Origin: a virus
IMG/VR virus record: IMGVR_UViG_3300022200_000074
Span: 1-48,115 of that record
Direction: 5' to 3' (one strand)
DNA length: 48,115 nt
Below the pieces are notes generated by a model. That model worked only from the letters and a program-made list of their open reading frames with translations. It did not search any database and was not told where the DNA came from. Shown piece after piece: positions 14,223 to 23,750 of this stretch; position 1 is the stretch's first letter; each line of letters opens with the position of its first letter. A program made the position numbers and the translations under genes.

Positions 14223-14756
14223 ATGAGCATCGAAGAGGGTTACCGAATCGACTCGGCAGAGAAGGCAGATGTTGCCTTACGCAAGTACTCATCGTTGATT
14301 CAGAAAAAACAACGACACGACGAAATGGCGAACAAAGAAATAACCCGAATAAAGACATGGCAAGAAGAAATGAATGCGAAGGTAGATAGCAGTCTGGATT
14401 TTATTCGCGGTCATCTAGAAGTATTCGCCATGAAGCAGCGGTTGGCAGGTGAGAAAACTTTCGACTCGCCTTCGGGCAGCATAAAGTCTAGACAGACTCC
14501 GCCTTCGGTAGATATTGACAATGCAACTTTTGTCGAATGGGCGCAAGAAAACAACCGTGACGATTGCCTTAACTACACGGTTCGTCCTGATGTTAAAAGA
14601 GTTAAACAATCATTTGTACCAAGTGACGGTTCGATGGTTGACCCAGCGACAGGGGAAGTAGTACCGGGGTTAATTCCTGTCGCGGAAAGAATCAGTTTCA
14701 TATTAGAACCCGATCTCAGCATGGCTAACTTAGGAGAAGATGATGACGGTGAATGA
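14223..14756 (+). CDS. Gam-like host-nuclease inhibitor
   Basis: The ATG at 14223 follows AGAGGAGGA and gives 177 residues. A long helical N-terminal half (about residues 10-70, KYSSLIQKKQRHDEMANKE and TRIKTWQEEMNAKVD) is followed by KTFDSPSGSIKSRQTPPSVD and a small alpha/beta region. This is the layout of Gam-family proteins, which bind DNA ends and block RecBCD/AddAB-type nucleases. The adjacent Rad52-like annealase supports a recombination module. The identification rests on pattern and context; the full-length family match was not computed. Confidence 0.7.
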   Translation: MSIEEGYRIDSAEKADVALRKYSSLIQKKQRHDEMANKEITRIKTWQEEMNAKVDSSLDFIRGHLEVFAMKQRLAGEKTFDSPSGSIKSRQTPPSVDIDNATFVEWAQENNRDDCLNYTVRPDVKRVKQSFVPSDGSMVDPATGEVVPGLIPVAERISFILEPDLSMANLGEDDDGE

Positions 14757-15402
14757 GAACCATAGCAATTTCACAGACGAACAAGTAGCAGAGTTACAGA
14801 AGGCGATCCAGCCGGGTCGGGTATCGAAAGATGGTAAGGGCTTCTCCCATGTAGAGGCTTGGGACGTACGCCGAACCATGAATAAGATATTTGGCTTCGG
14901 CGAATGGTCACTACACAGCGAAGAAATGCAACTCGTGTTCGAGGAAGAAGTAGATAATCCCAAGCAGCCCAGCAAGAAGAGATGGTCTGTTGGCTACCGT
15001 TGTAGGGCAACTCTTACTGTCGGCAGTAGTAGTTACAGCGAGTGGGCTGCGGGTGATGCCCTTAACCCTGTTAGGGGTGACGCGCACGACATGGCTATTA
15101 AGACCGCAGAGTCCCAAGCCTTCAAGCGTTGCGCGGTTAATCTAGGTGACCAGTTTGGTTTATCTCTATACAACAATGGTTCGTTAAAACCCACTGTTGG
15201 TGATGTTGTTGGTCAGGTGCACGAGGACGACGACAAGAAAGAGTCTTTCATAAAGGCTTTTCAAGCAGCACTTACGCAAGAAGATCTGAACGATTTAGGT
15301 GCAGAAATATCTGACTGCGATCTGGGCACAATTACACGCGAGAGCCTGCGATTGGCTTACCACGCCGCTGCGGAGCGAATCAGGTCGAATAACGAAAAAT
15401 AA
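14743..15402 (+). CDS. Rad52-like single-strand annealing protein
   Basis: The protein has about 219 residues (ATG 14740 or 14743, after TAGGAG). It has the Rad52/22 core: KGFSHVEAWDVRRTMNKIFG, GEWSLHSEEMQLVFEEE, YRCRATLTVGS, and the conserved AHDMAIKTAESQAFKRCAVNLG helix near residues 115-136. These proteins form rings that anneal complementary single strands during phage recombination and replication. The acidic C-terminal third is a typical SSB-interaction or regulatory tail. The start overlaps the Gam-like gene. The long hairpin at 15404 follows at once. Confidence 0.9.
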   Translation: MTVNENHSNFTDEQVAELQKAIQPGRVSKDGKGFSHVEAWDVRRTMNKIFGFGEWSLHSEEMQLVFEEEVDNPKQPSKKRWSVGYRCRATLTVGSSSYSEWAAGDALNPVRGDAHDMAIKTAESQAFKRCAVNLGDQFGLSLYNNGSLKPTVGDVVGQVHEDDDKKESFIKAFQAALTQEDLNDLGAEISDCDLGTITRESLRLAYHAAAERIRSNNEK

Positions 15403-17297: not shown

Positions 17298-17539
17298 TGC
17301 CTAGACCATACCGTCAAGCAGATATGACAGAACGCGCCGAGTTAGACATCCTAAAAGACATCAACCAAACAATCGCGAAAAACTTGCAACGCAATAATGC
17401 TCTCGCAGCCGACAGGAAACGAAGGGTTCAGGACATGATGAGTCGCGGCTGGAGCATGTACGCGATTGGTAAAGAAACTGGGGTAACGCCCAATACTGTT
17501 AAAAGGATTACAGAATCAGGAGAAAAGAATGAGCACTGA
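17297..17539 (+). CDS. Small helix-turn-helix protein
   Basis: The protein has 80 residues. The N-terminal half is a polar helix; the C-terminal half has a clear HTH: RVQDMMSRGWSMYAIGKETG, VTPNTVKRITESG. Its ATG overlaps the upstream stop (TAATG). It could regulate the following modification cassette, whose first gene overlaps it by 11 bases. The target is unknown. Confidence 0.7.
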   Translation: MPRPYRQADMTERAELDILKDINQTIAKNLQRNNALAADRKRRVQDMMSRGWSMYAIGKETGVTPNTVKRITESGEKNEH

Positions 17540-18014
17540 AAAAGTAAAGATAGAGTCAATAAAAAGTGATCCAGAGAACGCACGGATACATTCAGAAAAA
17601 AATATTGAGGCTATCGCTGGAAGCCTGAAGTCTTTTGGGCAAAGGAGACCCCTAGTTGTTTGGAGTGACATTGTTATCGCTGGTAATGGAACTTTAGAGG
17701 CAGCGAAAAGGTTGGGTTGGAAAACAATAGAAATTGCAAGAGCGCCTGAAGATTGGACGCACGATCAAGCAAGAGCGTATGCGTTAGCAGATAACCAAAC
17801 ATCTGAGTTGTCTGAATGGGACGCTAGTGTCTTAGCAGAACAACTACTGGAACTGGACTCTGTTGGTTTTAACATTGCTGACTGGGGATTCGTAGGTCTT
17901 ACCCCACCGATAGATTCTCCACCACCAGAAGATTTTCCTTCTTTCGATGAAGAAACCAAAACGCAATACATCTGCCCTAAGTGCAGTTATGAATGGAATG
18001 GTTCTGCAAACTAA
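17529..18014 (+). CDS. ParB-like nuclease-domain protein
   Basis: This 161-residue protein has the ParB/Srx fold: SDPENARIHSEKNIEAIAGS, SFGQRRPLVVW, IVIAGNGTLEAAKRLGW (the G-N/H-x-R-like loop, here GNGTLEA) and ALADNQTSELSEWD. Such domains bind or cut nucleic acid, or bind nucleotides, and often lie beside phage DNA methyltransferases. The C-terminus adds a zinc knuckle (YICPKCSYEW). There is no ParA, so plasmid-type partition is unlikely. I infer a role linked to the modification cassette that follows, whose first gene starts in its stop. Confidence 0.85.
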   Translation: MSTEKVKIESIKSDPENARIHSEKNIEAIAGSLKSFGQRRPLVVWSDIVIAGNGTLEAAKRLGWKTIEIARAPEDWTHDQARAYALADNQTSELSEWDASVLAEQLLELDSVGFNIADWGFVGLTPPIDSPPPEDFPSFDEETKTQYICPKCSYEWNGSAN

Positions 18015-18844
18015 TGCACCCTACCGGCAAACCTATTCGTGACTTAATGATGGAGTTATGTACGACTCCAAAAAAAGTCACGGTGTTTTTGTCTTCCGGT
18101 GTTGATAGCAACTCCATTTTACACGCGTTAATACTAAATGGTCATACACCAACTGTTACCTCTTTCTGTATGGACGGCAAAGTTTCATCAGACTTTCGGG
18201 CTGCTCAACGCATAGCCATGAAACTTGGATTGGACTTTTACCCGGTATTCCTGCCCACAGACTTAGATGTTCTAGTTGATGACATCAAAACAATGATGAG
18301 AGATTTTTTAGTACGCAAAAAAACAGAGATTGAATCTTTCTGGCCTTGCTGGTATGCCATTAAAGCATCACACGAAAATGGCCAACGGGTAATCGCCAAT
18401 GGTTTAACCGCTGGTGGCTTGTTTGGTGACGACCGTGAATGTTCCATTAGAGGTCATGGTCCAGAAGGTGACGATCCTTCTTGGCTCGATCAAATCCGAG
18501 CAGAAAAGTTTTCTAAACCAAACTACGGACAGAAACTTGCTTGGGCTTTGGCTTGCGGTGAAAGACAAATACAAATAATAAGCCCTTTTCGTGATGAAAG
18601 ATTTAGGGAAATCTTGCATGGGGTTTCATACAAATCATGTAACACACCTAAACAAAAGCAACCTTTACGCAGTGCGTTTCCAGAGATGTTTGGAATTAAA
18701 GACCACACCAACTTGCAACTTGGTGATTCAGGCATATCGGAACATTTTAAGAAACTCTTGAAACACCCAGTGAATGTTAACAACAACCTTAGCGTTGTTG
18801 GTATCTACAACCGTCTAGGTAAGGAGATCGAAAATGAAGGATGA
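18014..18844 (+). CDS. Asparagine-synthetase-like PP-loop ATPase
   Basis: Using ATG 18014 gives 276 residues. The ATP-pyrophosphatase loop VTVFLSSGVDSNSIL is near residues 22-36, followed by a Rossmann-like domain (CMDGKVSSDF, GLDFYPVFLPTD) and VIANGLTAGGLFGDDRE. The fold is that of the synthetase half of asparagine synthetase B. The glutaminase half is absent. Family enzymes adenylate a carboxylate and let an amine or ammonia attack. Given the CmoA-like and methyltransferase genes next door, amidation of a carboxymethyl group on DNA is a plausible role. This is inference; other substrates are possible. Confidence 0.75.
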   Translation: MHPTGKPIRDLMMELCTTPKKVTVFLSSGVDSNSILHALILNGHTPTVTSFCMDGKVSSDFRAAQRIAMKLGLDFYPVFLPTDLDVLVDDIKTMMRDFLVRKKTEIESFWPCWYAIKASHENGQRVIANGLTAGGLFGDDRECSIRGHGPEGDDPSWLDQIRAEKFSKPNYGQKLAWALACGERQIQIISPFRDERFREILHGVSYKSCNTPKQKQPLRSAFPEMFGIKDHTNLQLGDSGISEHFKKLLKHPVNVNNNLSVVGIYNRLGKEIENEG

Positions 18845-19526
18845 AGTGATAGCGGAAGGTGCGTGGAAGTTCAACACAAATGTAACCCATGTATTTGAAG
18901 ATATGTTGTCCCGTTCGATACCAGACTATTTAGGTATGCGGAGGTCAACAACAGAATTGGCTTTACGGTTCGCTCAGCCGAATACAACTATCTTGGATCT
19001 TGGTTGTTCACGAGGCTCTGCACTAAAACCCATCATCAAATCACTGGGTAGCACTTGTGCTTACCTTGGGGTAGAAGTATCTGAGTCTATGAGGGCGGCA
19101 GCAAGAAAAGAGATACCAGACGCTGAAATTATAGACATGGACCTACGGGAAGCCTACCCACAGATTCAAACTTCGGTCACACTCGCCGTACTTACCTTAC
19201 AGTTCGTTCCCATTGAGTACCGCCAGAAGATCATCTCGGAAGCGTACAAGAACACAAAGAGCGGAGGGGTACTTCTCCTAGTCGAAAAAGTTCTAGGCTC
19301 TGACGCTTTCTCAGATAAGGTTCTTGTGGAAACTTACCTAAACCGAAAAGGTGAAAACGGTTACACGCCAGAACAAATAAAAACAAAACGTAAGTCACTA
19401 GAGGGAGTTCTTGTCCCTGTAACTGCTAACTGGAATATGGACTTGTTACGAGATGCTGGTTGGCGGCACATGGATTGTTACTGGAGGCAGTTAAACTTTG
19501 CTGCTTGGATTGCAGTTAAACCATGA
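18834..19526 (+). CDS. CmoA-like carboxy-SAM synthase
   Basis: The protein has 230 residues. Along its whole length it parallels CmoA, which turns SAM plus prephenate into carboxy-SAM: WKFNTNVTHVFEDMLSRSIP, LDLGCSRGSAL (SAM loop), LTLQFVPIEYRQ, GVLLLVEKV, NGYTPEQIKTKRKSLEGV and LNFAAWIAVK each have a counterpart. R186 aligns with the arginine (R199 of E. coli CmoA, from memory) that binds the cofactor carboxylate. There is no CmoB, the usual tRNA-acting partner. It overlaps the PP-loop gene by 11 bases and the DNA methyltransferase gene by four, so product transfer to that enzyme is likely. Confidence 0.85.
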   Translation: MKDEVIAEGAWKFNTNVTHVFEDMLSRSIPDYLGMRRSTTELALRFAQPNTTILDLGCSRGSALKPIIKSLGSTCAYLGVEVSESMRAAARKEIPDAEIIDMDLREAYPQIQTSVTLAVLTLQFVPIEYRQKIISEAYKNTKSGGVLLLVEKVLGSDAFSDKVLVETYLNRKGENGYTPEQIKTKRKSLEGVLVPVTANWNMDLLRDAGWRHMDCYWRQLNFAAWIAVKP

Positions 19527-20734
19527 AGCCTCCCTACAAAGTTCCAAACATGTCGGAAGTTGCTAAGGCTAAAGGCACAAATGGGTACACGATGGTGTCA
19601 ACATTCTCTGGTGCTGGAGGTTCATGCCTTGGTTTTGAGATGGCAGGATTCGACATTAAGTATGCCAATGAGTTTGTGCCAGAAGCGCAACACACATATG
19701 CAGCAAACCACCCCAGCGTAATACTTGACACGAGAGATATAAGGTCGGTAACAGGCAAAGACATACTTTCACAAATAAAATTGAAAGTAGGGGAACTTGA
19801 CTTGCTCGAAGGATCACCCCCGTGCGCCTCTTTCTCTACTGCGGGTAACAGAGAAAAAGACTGGGGCAAAGTCAAAGGCTATTCAGACACAACACAAAGA
19901 GCAGATGACTTGTTCTTCGAGTACTCACGCCTAGTGAAAGAGATGCAGCCCAAAGTATTCGTGGCAGAGAATGTCAGTGGTCTTGTAAGAGGCAAGGCAC
20001 TCGGCTACTTCAAGTTGATTCTTGCTGAGTTCAAGTCACACGGATACGAGGTCGAGGCCAGACTACTTGACGCCTCGTGGCTTGGTGTTCCGCAAGCCCG
20101 CAAACGTTTGATATTTATTGGGGTTCGCAACGATATTGCCGCAGACTATGGAGTGAAACCAACATACCCTAAACCTTTGGCGTACAGATACACAGTTAGA
20201 GATGTTTTACCTAATGTGAGCAGAATGAAACTGGGTGGTAAACCAGATAACTGGAAGAAACCAGATGCACCTTCACCAACCATAATGGCAAGTGACGCAG
20301 TAACCAGCCCAACCGCATATTTTAGTAGTGGTGGTTACATCGAAACAACAGATGGCATATTTCAAGATCCAGAAACAGGTGCACCGATAAGCCTTGAAAA
20401 ATATGCGATAGGACCCGAGTGGGATAAACTACCCCCCGGTGGTCACAGTAAAAAGTATTTCACTCTAGTGAAGTCTCATCTAGACGAACCCGCACAAACA
20501 ATTACGGCGCAAGGGGGCAACGTAGGGGCAGCGGCCATAACTCACCCGACACAAAAACGCAAGTTCACGTTAGACGAATTACGGTTGCTATCGTCATTCC
20601 CTAAAGATTTCAAACTGACGGGTACTTTTGAACAAAGGTGGGAGCGTGTCGGTAGAAGTGTTCCGCCCATCATGGCTAGGGCGATAGGTGAAACAATTAG
20701 AGATGAGATACTCAACAAGATTAAGGAAAAGTAA
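19523..20734 (+). CDS. Cytosine-C5 DNA methyltransferase with altered cofactor pocket
   Basis: The protein has 403 residues and all C5-methyltransferase motifs: I FSGAGGSCLGFEMAGF, IV GSPPCASFS (catalytic C101), VI ENV (149-151), VIII QARKRLIFIG (191-200), IX KFTLDELRLLSSFP, X RVGRSVPP. Two pocket residues deviate. The usual Gln after the catalytic Cys (PCQ) is A102, and the near-invariant Asn of GNSVPP is R378 (codon 20654-20656). The equivalent Asn in M.MpeI, changed to Lys, allows carboxy-SAM use (from memory), and M.HhaI Q82 and N304 are positions engineered for bulky cofactors. With the CmoA-like neighbour I infer a DNA carboxymethyltransferase. Confidence 0.88.
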   Translation: MKPPYKVPNMSEVAKAKGTNGYTMVSTFSGAGGSCLGFEMAGFDIKYANEFVPEAQHTYAANHPSVILDTRDIRSVTGKDILSQIKLKVGELDLLEGSPPCASFSTAGNREKDWGKVKGYSDTTQRADDLFFEYSRLVKEMQPKVFVAENVSGLVRGKALGYFKLILAEFKSHGYEVEARLLDASWLGVPQARKRLIFIGVRNDIAADYGVKPTYPKPLAYRYTVRDVLPNVSRMKLGGKPDNWKKPDAPSPTIMASDAVTSPTAYFSSGGYIETTDGIFQDPETGAPISLEKYAIGPEWDKLPPGGHSKKYFTLVKSHLDEPAQTITAQGGNVGAAAITHPTQKRKFTLDELRLLSSFPKDFKLTGTFEQRWERVGRSVPPIMARAIGETIRDEILNKIKEK

Positions 20735-22783: not shown

Positions 22784-22840
22784 AGGGGATTTTTTAACCA
22801 CCCCCCCCGATGTAGCATGACTAGGGGGTCATGTTATGCT
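22784..22840 (+). promoter_or_regulatory. Recurrent promoter/operator element, copy 5
   Basis: GGGGATTTTTTAACCA, an 8-C tract, then TAGCATGAC (22813-22821) / GTCATGTTA (22828-22836, one G-T pair) around TAGGGG. TGTTATGCT is the extended -10 (box 22835-22840). The ATG at 22890 is 49 bases on; the leader keeps AGAGATCAGCACC. Confidence 0.7.
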
Positions 22841-22889
22841 GACTATTAGAGATCAGCACCGACGCTGGTTTCGACCGAAAAGGGGAATC

Positions 22890-23750
22890 ATGAAAAAAGA
22901 TATAGCAGCCGCAGTCACAGACCGCATAGTAGAAGCCATGGAAAAGGGCATCGTTCCTTGGCGCAAGCCTTGGTGCGCTAGTCAAAACGCACCCACGAGC
23001 CTATCGACAGGTAAGACCTACCGTGGCATCAACTACCTTATCCTTGACATGGTTTCTGGCATCGAAGGTTACGAGACTGGACTCTGGGGCACATACCGCC
23101 AATTCCAAAAAATGGGTGGGCAGGTTCAGAAAGGCGAAAAGGGAACCACGATTATTCTTTGGAAGAAGATCGAAAAAGTTGACGAACAAGGCGAGGAAAA
23201 GTCATTCGCCATCATGTCAACCTTCACGGTTTTCAATATCGCCCAGACCGACGTAGAAGTTCCTGCCAAGTACATCAGCACAGATCGAACCCCCGTACCA
23301 GTCCTAGAGGGCATAGAGCAAGCCACTAATTACCCAAACGGACCCACGGTTCGGCACCTAGAGCAAGACCAAGCATATTACAACTGTTCAACCGACACGA
23401 TCACCCTTCCCAAACTAGATCAGTTCAACAGCGCCAACGATTACGCTCAGACAGTACTCCATGAAATATCACATTCGACTGGTCACAAGTCGCGCCTTAA
23501 TCGCAACCTCGAAAACAAATTCGGGTGCGAGCAGTACGCAGAGGAAGAACTGGTAGCGGAGATCGGTTCCGCAATGCTAGCCACCGCGCTTAACATCGAA
23601 GTTGACTGGAACCAGTCAGCAGCGTACCTCGGTTCGTGGTTGAAAGTACTTAAGTCCGACCGCAGCCTAATCATCACCGCCGCTAAGGAGGCACAGAAAA
23701 TCATCGACCACGTTCTTCCACAAGAAGCCGACATGGAAGCAGCAGCGTAG
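22890..23750 (+). CDS. ArdC-like antirestriction protein
   Basis: This 286-residue protein has the two-domain ArdC layout. The N-terminal ssDNA-binding region contains VPWRKPWCASQNAP, GKTYRGINYLIL and GGQVQKGEKGTTIILWKK. The C-terminal zincin-like peptidase has LHEISHSTGHKSRLNR (HExxH) and EEELVAEIGSAML. ArdC proteins coat incoming DNA and protect it from restriction. It starts with ATG after AAAAGGGG under recurrent element 5, alone in its unit, which suits early expression. With the modified DNA it forms an anti-restriction set. Confidence 0.9.
   Translation: MKKDIAAAVTDRIVEAMEKGIVPWRKPWCASQNAPTSLSTGKTYRGINYLILDMVSGIEGYETGLWGTYRQFQKMGGQVQKGEKGTTIILWKKIEKVDEQGEEKSFAIMSTFTVFNIAQTDVEVPAKYISTDRTPVPVLEGIEQATNYPNGPTVRHLEQDQAYYNCSTDTITLPKLDQFNSANDYAQTVLHEISHSTGHKSRLNRNLENKFGCEQYAEEELVAEIGSAMLATALNIEVDWNQSAAYLGSWLKVLKSDRSLIITAAKEAQKIIDHVLPQEADMEAAA

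Follow-up and report, generated by a model that had tools for sequence, protein, structure and literature searches.

A tailed phage genome very probably carries a DNA hypermodification cassette, constituted of the genes ParB-CmoY-CmoA-CmoX in this order and located directly upstream of the terminase genes. The window, i.e. the whole stretch of DNA analyzed, is a viral record of 48,115 bases (IMGVR_UViG_3300022200_000074), which shares 17.2 kb with another IMG/VR contig at 99.99% identity. An earlier note on this DNA had described a two-gene unit, a CmoA gene coupled to that of a cytosine-C5 methyltransferase. Both reading frames lie where it placed them (18834–19526 and 19523–20734) and the CmoA stop overlaps the methyltransferase start in the 4 bases ATGA. 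The pair therefore stands, but not the extent of the unit, since the CmoY-like and ParB-like genes upstream had been overlooked. All four genes overlap head to tail (22 nt for ParB/CmoY and 11 nt for CmoY/CmoA), and the terminase genes follow directly 3′ of CmoX, with a small subunit that is a weak match.

17529–18014, + strand: ParB-like protein, 161 aa (phrog_620 ParB-like partition protein, E 4e-33), first gene of the cassette
17993–18844, + strand: CmoY-like ATP-dependent amide ligase, 283 aa (PF00733, E 8e-6; TIGR01536, E 1e-7)
18834–19526, + strand: CmoA, homolog of carboxy-SAM synthase, 230 aa (TIGR00740, E 3e-41; 4gek, E 2e-28)
19523–20734, + strand: CmoX, homolog of DNA cytosine-C5 carboxymethyltransferase, 403 aa (PF00145, E 1e-57; 8YF3 as best PDB match)

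The relevant chemistry is known from Synechococcus phage S-B43 (Yang et al. 2025, Nat Commun, 7 December 2025; PMC12783734; MN018232; PDB 8YF3). In this phage, CmoA makes carboxy-SAM (Cx-SAM), CmoX (8YF3) makes 5-carboxymethylcytosine (5cxmC) at GC sites and a ligase resembling asparagine synthetase, CmoY, couples glycine to 5cxmC; the glycine amide is detected in native S-B43 DNA and free 5cxmC is not (PMC12783734). The carboxylate is held by Arg350 of SpCmoX, at the position of HhaI Asn304, and the wild-type enzyme accepts Cx-SAM only (PMC12783734). In the same study, 5,615 candidate CmoX sequences are reported, many with CmoA, ligase and ParBc neighbors. The window is a further example of this system. 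Thus, the carboxymethylation proposed in the earlier note was essentially right, but its newness is lost to the publication of December 2025. The published chemistry is independently reproduced here from sequence alone and is extended to a phage whose packaging genes resemble those of actinobacteriophages.

By analogy with the S-B43 biochemistry, CmoA of the window would convert SAM and prephenate into carboxy-SAM. CmoX would then flip a cytosine, Cys101 would attack its C6, and the carboxymethyl group held by Arg378 would be transferred, leaving 5-carboxymethylcytosine. The new carboxylate would be activated with ATP by CmoY and coupled to an amine, and the finished base would probably shield the phage DNA from restriction.

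All the motifs formerly read in the methyltransferase are present in the alignment, namely C101, A102, ENV149–151, QARKR191–195 and R378. The catalytic cysteine lies in an SPPC motif (S98-P99-P100-C101). R378 occupies the position of SpCmoX Arg350, where arginine is invariant in 15 aligned CmoX. Moreover, F28, E50, F51, D72 and R378 form the conserved Cx-SAM pocket and C101 is also kept, so that every SpCmoX residue named as a Cx-SAM contact or as catalytic is conserved in the window enzyme, which is 37% identical to SpCmoX. The closest solved structure is 8YF3, both by sequence (E 6e-66) and by fold (E 2e-32, from an AlphaFold2 model of pLDDT 88 compared with the PDB). Given this homology to the proven S-B43 pair, the conserved pocket and the linkage of Arg to CmoA described below, the window CmoX almost certainly uses Cx-SAM and would yield 5-carboxymethylcytosine in DNA. 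No compositional footprint of a GC target was found in the window (GpC odds ratio 1.0; G+C 49%).

The linkage was surveyed with C5-methyltransferases from GTDB genomes and from IMG/VR, the latter queried with sequences of both the Arg and the Asn type. The residue aligned to R378 was scored and neighbors were counted on distinct enzymes, those fetched through CmoA being excluded. In this sample, shaped by the search seeds and with ∼5 independent Arg/Asn changes behind it, CmoA lies nearby in 125 of 132 Arg enzymes, against 1 of 135 with Asn and none of the 3 with Met. The sole Asn enzyme with a nearby CmoA resides on a contig that also carries an Arg enzyme. Within a single genome_contigs search that returned both kinds, the counts are 36/40 for Arg versus 0/35 for Asn. 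Arg enzymes lacking a nearby CmoA are rare (7/132) and several lie on fragments; for two exceptions a CmoA occurs elsewhere in the genome, one at 52% identity (L252) and one as a weak match (L275). Arginine at this position is thus not common away from CmoA, and the motif X alignment proposed in the earlier note bears out the predicted linkage. In the tree of enzymes, Arg and Asn switch 5 times. Four independent pairs are supported, of which an average of 3.7 show CmoA changing in step and none the reverse, but four pairs are too few for significance. A single clade therefore does not account for the association by itself. Four enzymes from Acidobacteria (L242, L243, L245 and L246), with WERLGNSVPP and PCQ, are 43–47% identical to the window CmoX and have no CmoA nearby.

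The survey contributes a second diagnostic residue, the absence of glutamine after PPC. This glutamine is found in 131/135 Asn enzymes versus 0/144 Arg enzymes, and its loss is therefore as good a sign as the arginine. The earlier view that PCQ varies naturally, leaving R378 as the stronger sign, has to be abandoned since loss of the glutamine tracks Arg almost perfectly. A small group of related enzymes combines Met at motif X with Ser or Thr after PPC and has no CmoA (L126:3926-4993, L022:5881-6981 and L294:5923-6993); L126 is a complete Flavobacterium phage record. In Verrucomicrobia contigs (L217–L238), several different CmoX occur per genome, most with an adjoining CmoA, in prophage-like surroundings; one metagenome-assembled genome has six CmoX contigs, and no recognizable CmoY is found in L217–L238. 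A non-phage bacterial system was considered for these multi-copy loci and rejected, because the neighbors are terminase subunits, DNA polymerase and primase/helicase, which makes the loci prophages.

The CmoA claimed at 18834 is indeed a full-length family member. TIGR00740 matches residues 5–229 and the E. coli CmoA structure 4gek residues 8–229; the TIGR00740 score is 141.5 bits, i.e. below the equivalog cut-off of 193.3. It is 27% identical to the active SpCmoA. R186 aligns with E. coli Arg199, which makes a salt bridge with the Cx-SAM carboxylate (PMC3663124), in agreement with the earlier reading. Among 134 distinct phage and prophage CmoA, this position is occupied by Glu in 73, Arg in 38 and Ala in 15, and the preceding Lys is invariant. 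The proven SpCmoA itself aligns with Glu there and is by measurement ∼10 times faster than E. coli CmoA (PMC12783734). Thus, phage CmoA can do without this arginine, which is not diagnostic.

Because the best-known role of CmoA is in tRNA modification and C5-methyltransferases are common in phages, one could imagine an ordinary 5mC methyltransferase beside a CmoA that either serves synthesis of the wobble nucleotide cmo5U or is a passenger. This reading is very improbable. The 48-kb record contains no match to TIGR00452, i.e. no CmoB, as the earlier note had recognized, and the tRNA pathway is rejected on this ground. Furthermore, Arg378, A102 and CmoA co-occur across hundreds of enzymes, the homologous S-B43 enzyme accepts Cx-SAM only (PMC12783734) and a CmoY belongs to the same overlapping operon.

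This CmoY is an asparagine-synthetase-type PP-loop synthetase domain without a glutaminase domain, with the PP-loop SSGVDS at residues 34–39. Over 233 aa, it shares 29% identity with SpCmoY. Asparagine synthetase and beta-lactam synthetase are the best PDB folds for its AlphaFold2 model (pLDDT 94). CmoYs come in two sizes, either ∼270 aa, the short kind to which the window protein belongs, or ∼470 aa with an N-terminal half and the PP-loop near residue 230. A recognizable CmoY lies beside 57/144 Arg enzymes versus 0/135 Asn enzymes. Natural fusions exist in both orders and tie the two activities together: a SAR116 genome contig encodes a CmoY-CmoX of 714 aa (L278:4990-7131), and a viral contig a CmoX followed by a long CmoY, of 862 aa in total (L019:5821-8406). 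No mention of such fusions was found in the main text of PMC12783734 under ‘fusion’ or ‘fused’.

The presence of the ligase in the operon bears on what the phage finally writes. The 5cxmC step proposed in the earlier note is strongly supported by S-B43 homology, pocket and linkage, whereas 5cxmC as the end product is disfavored by the CmoY-like ligase, which probably turns it into an amide. The alternative, free 5cxmC as final base with a window CmoY that is inactive or acts elsewhere, is unlikely, although two observations favor it. CmoA relatives 61–70% identical to that of the window (L027–L038) have ParB-CmoA-CmoX with no CmoY in the examined loci, and the window CmoY has a loop without the usual Asp. 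For CmoY-less cassettes, no dedicated substitute ligase was found, the recurrent neighbors being ParB and packaging genes. Against free 5cxmC, the window-type CmoY is intact and is kept at 59–71% identity in other phages, always within the cassette. In addition, the PP-loop, K110, R169, NxPxQK and Q242 are conserved, the predicted asparagine-synthetase fold is confident and S-B43 DNA shows no free 5cxmdC.

If the amide reading is retained, the loop raises the question of which amine is coupled. Most CmoYs have G..ADGxFGxSKKAxIH (GxxADGxFGxSKKAxIH) at this place, aligned with the GEGSDE loop of asparagine synthetase. In the window CmoY, loop 137–152 reads GLTAGGLFGDDRECSIRG, clearly unlike that of SpCmoY and nearly the same in the closest relatives L297, L007 and L009. 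The small branch formed by the window with L297, L007 and L009/L010/L015 has GLTAGGLFGDDR(E/N)CSIRG or DDKNCSIRG, and the Asp of the ADG loop, kept in 23/28 relatives, is missing from the window protein. The altered loop presumably sits near the active site, so that activity or amine substrate may differ. It is conceivable, though somewhat doubtful on these sequence grounds, that this branch couples an amine other than glycine. Should this be the case, these phages would carry an undescribed 5-carboxymethylcytosine amide. The survey thus singles out a group of CmoYs as candidates for writing a new amide into DNA. PMC12783734 likewise mentions clusters of ligases that differ in their active-site residues and whose amines are unknown.

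Compared with S-B43, the window shares contiguous and overlapping CmoA, CmoY and CmoX genes, Arg at the HhaI Asn304 position with identical Cx-SAM pocket residues, a short CmoY without glutaminase and the lack of CmoB. Apart from the identities (CmoX 37%, CmoA 27%, CmoY 29%), the systems differ in gene order, which is CmoA-CmoY-CmoX with no ParB annotated beside it in S-B43 versus ParB-CmoY-CmoA-CmoX here. They also differ at the CmoA position where S-B43 has Glu and the window keeps the Arg199 equivalent, in the altered CmoY loop and in a terminase that is closest to those of Arthrobacter phages. A cassette with a 53% identical CmoX, two ParB-like genes, CmoY and CmoA is also found in Streptomyces phage TurkishDelight (NC_073473), but its CmoY lies downstream and bears at its N terminus a glutamine amidotransferase domain (ammonia type). 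In M.MpeI N374K, a basic residue at the motif X Asn position likewise permits Cx-SAM use (cited in PMC12783734); this enzyme is, however, engineered, with Lys rather than Arg, a CG target and no partner genes. As to E. coli CmoA (4gek), of which the window protein is a full-length homolog with Arg199 conserved, it acts with CmoB in tRNA cmo5U synthesis.

The ParB-like protein of the window ends in a CPKCSYEWNG knuckle, and a CxxC tail is present in 83/86 ParB-like neighbors of CmoX. ParB was considered as a marker of carboxymethylation and rejected, since ParB-like genes also adjoin Asn-type enzymes without CmoA and therefore lack specificity for Cx-SAM chemistry. ParB is probably a general accessory of the DNA methyltransferase and not one of the carboxymethyl chemistry.

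The large terminase shares ∼50% identity with its counterparts in Arthrobacter phages, a likeness that suggests, but does not prove, an actinobacterial host. Just downstream of it, a gene at 22836–23750 encodes an ArdC-like antirestriction protein (ArdcN and zincin-like metallopeptidase domain), which may give the phage a second means of countering restriction. A single-strand annealing protein of the Rad52/22 family is encoded at 14740–15402 (PF04098, E 3e-19). Finally, in Moraxella catarrhalis phage Mcat8 (L005:2499-4699), a ParB-like protein, a CmoX of the Arg type and a short CmoA of the Glu type, all annotated as hypothetical proteins, are encoded upstream of the terminase.
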